64,000 nt of DNA from SAR202 cluster bacterium. Its GTDB lineage: Bacteria; Chloroflexota; Dehalococcoidia; Lucifugimonadales; VXLM01. The stretch lies in assembly GCA_022448725.1 (NCBI GenBank), contig JAKUTR010000011.1, positions 1 through 64,000 of the forward strand. Direction: 5' to 3'. Both the position numbers and the translations under genes were made by a program. The notes below the pieces were generated by a model. The model did not search any database. It had not been told where the DNA came from and saw only the letters and a program-made list of their open reading frames with translations. Positions 53,320 through 60,382 of this stretch are shown one piece after another; positions within the stretch are counted from its first letter, which is position 1; the number at the start of each line of letters is the position of its first letter.

Positions 53320-53451
53320 GCAAGAGATGATAATACGCATGAAGTCTTGACTCAACTGTGGGGGCTGAAGGGAGTCCTTTTTAGTGGGCGGAGTAAAAAC
53401 CAGTCGAGACCGCTATAAGTAAAGCAAGAAAGAAACCGGCCCCCATACGCT

Positions 53452-53479
53452 TTGACAGGCGAACTAAGGCAAGTATAAT
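53452..53479 (+). promoter_or_regulatory. Consensus sigma70 promoter
   Basis: A perfect TTGACA (53452-53457) and a perfect TATAAT (53474-53479) are 16 bp apart. Transcription would begin near 53486 and run into a 29-codon ORF and a 32-bp palindrome. No large gene is downstream on this strand until 56469, so the unit is small and self-contained. Confidence 0.65.
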
Positions 53480-53505
53480 CAGATACGAAGAGGCTATGGG
53501 GGAGG

Positions 53506-53595
53506 ATGAAAGTTTTTGCGGAGGGGCCTCTGAGAAAGGAGGTGCATCGTTGGATAGTAGCAGTAGGAGGTGTCGCGGTTAGGTGTTCATTGTGA
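53506..53595 (+). CDS. Possible 29-residue microprotein
   Basis: ATG 53506 opens a 29-codon frame ending in TGA. It begins MKVFAEGPLRKEVHRW and ends in a hydrophobic Val/Ala/Gly stretch plus CSL. A second, overlapping 28-codon frame starts at ATG 53496 in another phase and ends at 53582. GGGGGAGG directly precedes the first ATG, closer than usual. I do not recognise either product; the RNA itself may be the functional molecule (a small RNA). A stem AGGTGT/ACACCT at 53581-53600 overlaps the ORF end. Confidence 0.3.
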   Translation: MKVFAEGPLRKEVHRWIVAVGGVAVRCSL

Positions 53596-53610
53596 CACCT
53601 TCTGAAAGAC

Positions 53611-53642
53611 GGGCCCCGCTGGAGCATGCTCCAGCGGGGCCC
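53611..53642. terminator. Perfect 32-bp palindrome, probable bidirectional terminator
   Basis: The half-site GGGCCCCGCTGGAGCA is followed by its exact reverse complement, with GAAA on the left and TTTC on the right flank. It could end the small rightward unit and the leftward transcript of the transporter at 53694. The T-tract is only three bases, so it is not a textbook terminator; a protein-binding site is the alternative. Confidence 0.55.
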
Positions 53643-53693
53643 TTTCACATTCAGGATCCCCGGATCAACAAACCCTGACCATTCAAAGACAGG

Positions 53694-54221
53694 TTAACGA
53701 ACTCCCCTGATCAGGATTACACCGGATAATAACGCGAGGACACCGAGCCCGCGTAGCAAGTCAATGCGGTAAACGTGCCCTCCGAACGCCCCGATCTGGT
53801 CAAGGAGCAGGGCCCCCATTAGCTGGCCCGCGATAGCCGAAGCAAGGTAAAGCCCTACCCCGATTCGAGGGATAAGAAAGCCGGACCCTATCAGAAAAGG
53901 AAGAGACATTAGTCCGGTCAAGATAAGGTAGGGAGGGACCCCCCTTACAGATAAGGCCAGCGCGAGGGTTGACAATGCTGCGACTGCGGCCATCACCCAA
54001 GCCCGGTCGAAGGGAACGGGTAAGCCCGTGCCACTGCCTGCGTTGCGGATGGCTAAGACCGCCGAAAGTCCAGCGGCGGTCGCTAATAGGGATACCCAAA
54101 CAGCCGCAGAAGGGCTCCGAAGGCTGCCCATCGCGCCAAGCATGGAGACTTGGATGGCGACACCGCCACCACTTATGAAGGCCAGAGCAATATAAATGAG
54201 GTGGGTTGCGGAGAGTGGCAT
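53694..54221 (-). CDS. DMT-superfamily transporter, YdcZ-type
   Basis: A 175-residue hydrophobic protein with about five membrane segments. The start MPLSATHLIYIALAFISGGGVAIQ with the later LTGLMSLPFLIGSGFLIPRIG and GQLMGALLLDQIGAFGG fits the YdcZ (DUF606) branch of the drug/metabolite transporter superfamily, which are half-size and pair as dimers. Substrate unknown. Its ATG overlaps the stop of the upstream NHL gene by one base (TGATG). Confidence 0.72.
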   Translation of the reverse strand: MPLSATHLIYIALAFISGGGVAIQVSMLGAMGSLRSPSAAVWVSLLATAAGLSAVLAIRNAGSGTGLPVPFDRAWVMAAVAALSTLALALSVRGVPPYLILTGLMSLPFLIGSGFLIPRIGVGLYLASAIAGQLMGALLLDQIGAFGGHVYRIDLLRGLGVLALLSGVILIRGVR

Positions 54222-60297: not shown

Positions 60298-60382
60298 GGA
60301 GGGATGGCCGAGCGGCTTAAGGCGCCTGTCTTGAAAACAGGTTTACTGAAAGGTAACGTGGGTTCGAATCCCACTCCCTCCG
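60298..60382 (+). tRNA. tRNA-Ser (anticodon UGA)
   Basis: An 85-base tRNA. Acceptor arms GGAGGGA (60298-60304) and TCCCTCC (60375-60381) pair fully, and the discriminator is G60382. The anticodon stem-loop CCTGTCTTGAAAACAGG carries TGA, the T arm is GGTTCGAATCC, and a long variable arm is present, as in class II serine tRNAs. CCA is encoded next (60383-60385). Confidence 0.95.

Follow-up and report, generated by a model that had tools for sequence, protein, structure and literature searches.

The locus and its features

The window analysed here is a 64,000-nucleotide stretch (positions 1 to 64,000) of contig JAKUTR010000011.1 of a SAR202 cluster bacterium. Between two of its genes, both located on the minus strand, lie the features of a predicted free-standing RNA gene, oriented divergently to its left neighbour and convergently to its right neighbour (Table 1). 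The surrounding gap, put at 374 bp in a preliminary description of this DNA, is indeed intergenic but measures 338 bp between ORFs (53356–53693) when the left gene start is taken at 53355; the larger figure corresponds to an internal ATG start of the left gene. The promoter had been called perfect and rare in the window and is in fact the sole match to TTGACA-N16-TATAAT at 12 out of 12 positions (0.01 expected in shuffled sequences). TATAAT was found in 48 of 50 homologous units and TACAAT in one, the automatic search having returned a blank in the last; among these units the perfect -35 is peculiar to this genome and TATAAT alone is general. The region of the unit folds with a predicted energy of -77.5 kcal/mol vs -54.0 +/- 3.8 kcal/mol in shuffles (z -6.2). 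Elsewhere in the window we found a tRNA (60298–60382) and, above the gathering score, a PyrR binding site (RF00515, 63631–63741, plus strand) that represents an ordinary pyrimidine-operon leader.

Table 1. Predicted features of the RNA gene, with coordinates in the window and the observation on which each assignment rests
Feature	Position	Strand	Basis or remark
Free-standing RNA gene	53452–53650	+	Sequence comparison, conserved core
Sigma-70-type promoter TTGACA-N16-TATAAT	53452–53479	+	12/12 match to consensus
5' domain with stem P1	53489–53531	+	AGAGGCT (53489–53495) pairs with GGCCTCT (53525–53531); arm-swap test
Shine-Dalgarno sequence AGAAAGGAGGTG	53533–53544	+	12 nt complementary to own 16S 3' end (CACCTCCTTTCT)
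Conserved 10-codon ORF, TTG GAT AGT AGC AGT AGG AGG TGT CGC GGT TAG (LDSSSRRCRG)	53550–53582	+	Frame kept in relatives
Hairpin P2, 16 bp	53564–53604	+	5' arm lies inside the last ORF codons, 3' arm ends at 53604; covariation
Stop codon and loop of P2, TAGGTGTTC	53580–53588	+	Loop holds the ORF stop
Alternative hairpin P2alt	53581–53600	+	Post-stop AGGTGTT with P2 3' arm GACACCT; suggestive
P3, perfect 32-bp palindrome (53611–53642) plus TTTC, intrinsic-terminator-like	53611–53650	+	Hairpin after P2 in relatives

Distribution in the order

A DNA search for homologues (60 relatives) returned matches to positions 53498–53642 within the genus and across numerous families of the order, and their alignment defined a conserved core of the form GAAAGGAGGT - 6–8 nt - TTGGATAGTAGTAGTAGGAGGTGTNCCNGG - TAGGTGTTC - ACACCTCC-like arm. 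From this core we built a covariance model (R1) and ran it on 250 genomes of the order, drawn from a collection with one genome per species, many of them incomplete. It recognised the unit in 73 of the 250 at E <= 0.01, about 53 of these being strong matches and nearly all being single copy. The anatomy of the form recognised by R1, type A, was read from 50 extracted units (45 distinct). In family f29, where R1 matched weakly, a divergent sister form, type B, was found, and strong type B matches occurred only there. A second model built from type B units alone (R2) recovered type A units at identical positions, indicating that the two types belong to one family; with both models, a recognisable copy is present in about 100 of the 250 genomes. 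On this comparison of sequences the unit is vertically conserved across one order of Chloroflexota, and families of the order without matches may harbour unrecognised forms. A lack of conservation of ORF and stems in close relatives, which the preliminary description had named, along with a missing transcript, as its refutation, was looked for and did not occur.

Scanning named genomes for the pattern gave Chloroflexi, Dehalococcoidia and SAR202 records only. Since the carriers include two apparent single-cell assemblies as well as chromosome-level records, the unit is not a binning artefact. Outside the class, a search of the phylum gave four weak matches, none reading as a unit of this kind, and a search of viral contigs gave none, on which phage carriage was rejected. 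Two weak class-level matches (L061 and L188) look like chance and were set aside. Another class-level relative outside the order (L123) has the same P1 motif and ORF, with an ATG start and a TAA stop (MSRSRQRCSL). Tiny-ORF units with a perfect Shine-Dalgarno sequence followed by a terminator, unrelated in sequence (MDSSSSTSAAPSLEGKA, MDYRSCRACGPNNRRNTSGDSC, MDDNSSRGLWPVHPHRHSLEVMAG), were also seen in families f7 (L115, L057), f56 (L122) and f106 (L124), the stop in the f7 and f56 units by eye again lying in a hairpin loop; these may be distant or analogous members.

The 5' domain and the tiny ORF

Stem P1 encloses a purine-rich loop that carries GATGAAAGT, a motif that is GATGANAGY-like in many relatives. 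It has 5–10 bp, and both of its sides change between units (GAGGC/GCCTC, GAGAC/GTCTC, GGGAC/GTCCC, GAAGAC/GTCTTC); arms from within one genome pair at -10.9 kcal/mol vs -8.8 kcal/mol when swapped between genomes (0/5000 permutations). The Shine-Dalgarno sequence that follows is near-perfect across relatives, the 16S tail of this genome being GGATCACCTCCTTTCTAGGG. A bistable pairing of this first Shine-Dalgarno sequence with the 3' arm of P2 was rejected, as swaps between genomes gave no sign of co-evolution (-10.82 vs -10.79 kcal/mol, a fraction of 0.46 of permutations being at least as good).

Earlier, a 29-codon ORF (53506–53595) overlapping a second frame had been pointed out. Both frames exist, each with an ATG start, the second one at 53496–53582, but the 29-codon ORF varies in start and length among relatives and was discarded as a gene product, the conserved ORF being the one that begins with TTG at 53550. 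In every type A unit the distance from start to stop is 27, 30 or 33 nt, the spacer between the Shine-Dalgarno sequence and the start varies (7, 8, 9, 10 or 12 nt), and an in-frame start was present in 45/45 distinct units, although this was not imposed as a criterion. Type B ORFs have 10–13 codons and a stop in the P2 loop, with ATG, GTG or TTG as start and TAA, TAG or TGA as stop (peptides MNSSTGGVLL, LYSCLTGGALR, LETNYKRGALI, MSSTKRGVLR and MSDSTSGGSLL; hairpin arms GGAGGTG / CACCTC-like). A second ORF, which would follow another Shine-Dalgarno-like stretch and start at the GTG of TAGGTG within the P2 loop, was dismissed on reading the units because neither its length nor its stop is conserved.

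These patterns bear on whether the ORF is incidental and the unit a non-translated structured small RNA whose Shine-Dalgarno-like, G-rich seeds would pair with the 16S tail or with C-rich targets. Conservation is highest in its purine-rich, Shine-Dalgarno-like segments, TTG is at no point replaced by ATG in type A, and P1, P2 and P3 would make a compact RNA; yet the start-stop length shifts in threes and the flanking spacers by single bases, relatives swap start and stop codons for synonymous ones, and the Shine-Dalgarno sequence sits at a translation-competent spacing. We consider this explanation improbable.

Conversely, the unit might be a microprotein gene, in which the RNA would simply be the mRNA of a functional peptide (about 10 residues), with hairpins that protect the message and end transcription. 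The frame, the length and the start and stop functions are preserved across two divergent forms, and a Ser/Thr-rich start and an (R/G)-rich middle recur among the peptides (LDSSSRRCRG, MSRSRQRCSL, LDSNTKGCLR, LETNYKRGALI, MSSTKRGVLR, MSDSTSGGSLL). However, codons 8–10 vary widely while their base pairing is kept, Cys8 is missing throughout one family (P, S, Q, L or R instead), which also led us to reject a cysteine-responsive leader, and there is no surplus of silent changes: third codon positions of the type A ORF are not the most variable, and silent positions are no freer than the rest. The start codon is TTG in 36/36 distinct 30-nt type A ORFs, which is unusual for a plain coding gene. The lack of freedom at silent positions and the invariant TTG in type A disfavour coding for its own sake, and the untranslated post-stop loop GTGTTC is near-invariant and among the best conserved parts, which, together with the variation of codons 8–10 under preserved pairing, argues that the RNA and not the peptide alone is under selection. 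A microprotein gene is rather unlikely in our judgement.

P2, a possible second hairpin for its 3' arm, and a terminator-like hairpin

What had been noted as a small stem at 53581–53600 is in fact a hairpin of 16 bp, P2, spanning 53564–53604. Across the alignment 91.6% of P2 cells are paired, and 70 cells carry double changes vs 21.1 in shuffles (0/500). In type A the post-stop loop AGGTGTTC duplicates the 5' arm of P2 (in consensus also AGGTGTTC) and could thereby take that arm's place opposite the 3' arm, GAACACCT. The resulting alternative hairpin, P2alt, pairs at 8/8 positions in 37 of 50 units and at 7/8 in 12, one row being misaligned; the post-stop segment folds by itself in 50/50 units (mean -8.9 kcal/mol), P2alt cells are paired in 96.1% of cases vs 44–60% on sliding, and the pairing is compensated in both lineages with an altered loop. 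Furthermore, 32/32 cells that break P2 retain P2alt (25 expected). The data are thus suggestive of P2 and P2alt as mutually exclusive hairpins for one 3' arm in type A, and suggestive only, because the 5' arm itself copies the loop and the related sequences are non-independent. In type B, P2alt is clear in some genera only. The P2 loop of type B units L105–L121 and L174–L186 contains, past the stop, a GGGCGCCC palindrome that could support a kissing contact between two copies of the RNA.

The perfect 32-bp palindrome described earlier at 53611–53642 is present and forms P3. All 50 units have a stable hairpin (< -12 kcal/mol) beyond P2, 46 of them with a T-rich tail, and in this genome P3 may also be of use to the convergent gene that ends at 53694. 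The P3 hairpin of type B (GGGGCCACCCGG...CCGGTGGCCCC) is conserved in sequence, has a weak T-run and exceeds the needs of a terminator.

Neighbouring genes

The first gene downstream of a type A unit runs towards it in 39 of 41 loci, and its identity varies (phosphotriesterase-like in 22, CinA-like in 9, others; names assigned by reading the sequences). A gene read as VOC/glyoxalase-like is often divergent upstream. In two same-genus relatives (L004, L005) the gene converging on the unit reads by eye as the 3' end of ffh, encoding the signal recognition particle protein, which is probably chance, as the neighbours differ elsewhere. Among type B units L105, L106, L110, L112, L116, L118, L119 and L121, those of two genera have a NUDIX-like gene behind them on the same strand, and in another genus, g65, a small convergent gene intervenes.

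The arrangement bears on the "leader" option of the preliminary description, that is, a cis-acting leader or attenuator, composed of leader peptide, hairpin and terminator, that would control the gene behind it. The anatomy is of the attenuator type, with a leader ORF overlapping a hairpin and a terminator behind it, and some type B genomes have the co-directional NUDIX-like gene; against this, a convergent gene intervenes in one type B genus and a co-directional downstream gene of consistent identity is lacking. Given the convergent downstream gene at 39 of the 41 type A loci, the unit is not a cis leader in type A, and for the family as a whole we regard such a role as very improbable.

Searches against known RNA classes

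The preliminary description had matched no known RNA family (4.5S, 6S, tmRNA) by eye, in agreement with our searches: no Rfam 15 family reached its gathering score at this locus or at 14 related loci, and E values up to 10 brought up only chance matches at this locus, mostly miRNA-type hairpins. The covariance models of 6S RNA (RF00013) and SRP RNA (RF00169, RF01854) matched neither the locus nor any other part of its genome, and the locus has no tmRNA match (RF00023) or tRNA-like domain, so that tmRNA-like, 6S and SRP identities were rejected on these model searches. The genome is 95% complete, and at E <= 0.001 6S and SRP RNA (small and large models) are missing from it and tmRNA was found (contig C9, 34818–35176); either the models overlook Chloroflexota forms of the missing RNAs or their genes lie in assembly gaps. 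That the unit is a diverged housekeeping RNA (6S, SRP RNA or tmRNA) would suit its single-copy, order-wide occurrence and the blank drawn by the 6S and SRP models in the rest of the genome. This is nevertheless hardly credible given the separate tmRNA gene, the negative Rfam results and an architecture of three hairpins plus an ORF that is unlike 6S or SRP RNA.

A type I toxin-antitoxin RNA would encode a hydrophobic toxin and be paired with an antisense RNA; the unit does not fit this class, its predicted peptide of about 10 residues being polar and basic. As for dual-function small RNAs, the unit has, as judged from its sequence, its own promoter and terminator and a free-standing position, and the frame, start and stop of its ORF are conserved in relatives. 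Of the three options first offered (small regulatory RNA, microprotein gene or leader), the picture of a conserved, structured, free-standing element outside Rfam has thus held up, but the frame named was the wrong one and the cis leader is excluded by the type A loci.

Proposed mechanism

Comparison among relatives establishes the parts of the unit and their conservation, P1, P2, the reading frame and the free-standing position; from these we infer transcription, translation, the switch and any effect in trans. The locus is a previously uncatalogued small RNA gene by sequence comparison, single-copy in almost every carrier genome. Its product would be a structured RNA of about 150–165 nt, from its own gene, doubling as a minimal mRNA. 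We give about an even chance to our preferred explanation, that this is a dual-function small RNA that is translated, with the choice between the two hairpins made by the ribosome on the ORF. Ribosomes would load at the strong Shine-Dalgarno sequence, read 10 codons and terminate inside P2; a ribosome covering the 5' arm of P2 would leave the 3' arm to pair with the second copy past the stop (P2alt), and without translation the longer P2 would prevail. The RNA would then report or respond to translation and could act in trans via the freed segment (the 5' arm GGAGGUG or the loop). The peptide would more likely be incidental, or an additional output, than the principal product. In a more specific version, put forward tentatively, the unit would be a ribosome-gated free-standing switch that is there mainly to be translated, flips its hairpins and tunes its activity in trans, serving as a cell-wide sensor of translation in SAR202-type bacteria.

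With this unit an uncultured lineage known from the ocean, the SAR202-type Chloroflexota, gains an RNA gene that is order-wide and single-copy and whose covariance model is usable for annotation. If the switch reading is true, it would be a leader-peptide-style device freed from any operon, and "translation as a signal" would be testable with a 165-nt construct.

Comparison with known systems

Searches of a library of open-access papers returned none on small RNAs of SAR202-type Chloroflexota, and Rfam gave no sequence kinship to the three systems fthC, rnTrpL and SR1 compared below. The mRNA-like domain of tmRNA also has an ORF of about 10 codons with its stop within a hairpin; unlike tmRNA, the SAR202 unit has no tRNA-like domain, would initiate normally at a Shine-Dalgarno sequence and occurs in a genome with a separate tmRNA.

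SR1/SR1P of Bacillus subtilis is a dual-function sRNA encoding a small protein (PMC8501984), and both it and the SAR202 unit are sRNA genes that also carry a small coding frame. Compared with SR1, the SAR202 ORF is distinguished by having about 10 codons, ending in a hairpin loop and overlapping the most structured part of the RNA. The rnTrpL/peTrpL pair of Sinorhizobium meliloti, a product of trp attenuation that starts at its own ATG, is likewise a short terminated RNA with a tiny ORF (14 aa in rnTrpL), and there the RNA acts in trans and the peptide is active too (PMC7298713); the SAR202 unit differs in its own promoter, its 5' domain, its strong Shine-Dalgarno sequence and the absence of an operon behind it. 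The fthC motif of Streptococcus, a uORF candidate and cis element upstream of one gene, has the same succession of P1, a Shine-Dalgarno sequence with start codon, P2, often with an in-frame stop, and a terminator, making up three hairpins (PMC11109978), whereas the SAR202 unit is free-standing, has a convergent neighbour, and is of another sequence and from another phylum.
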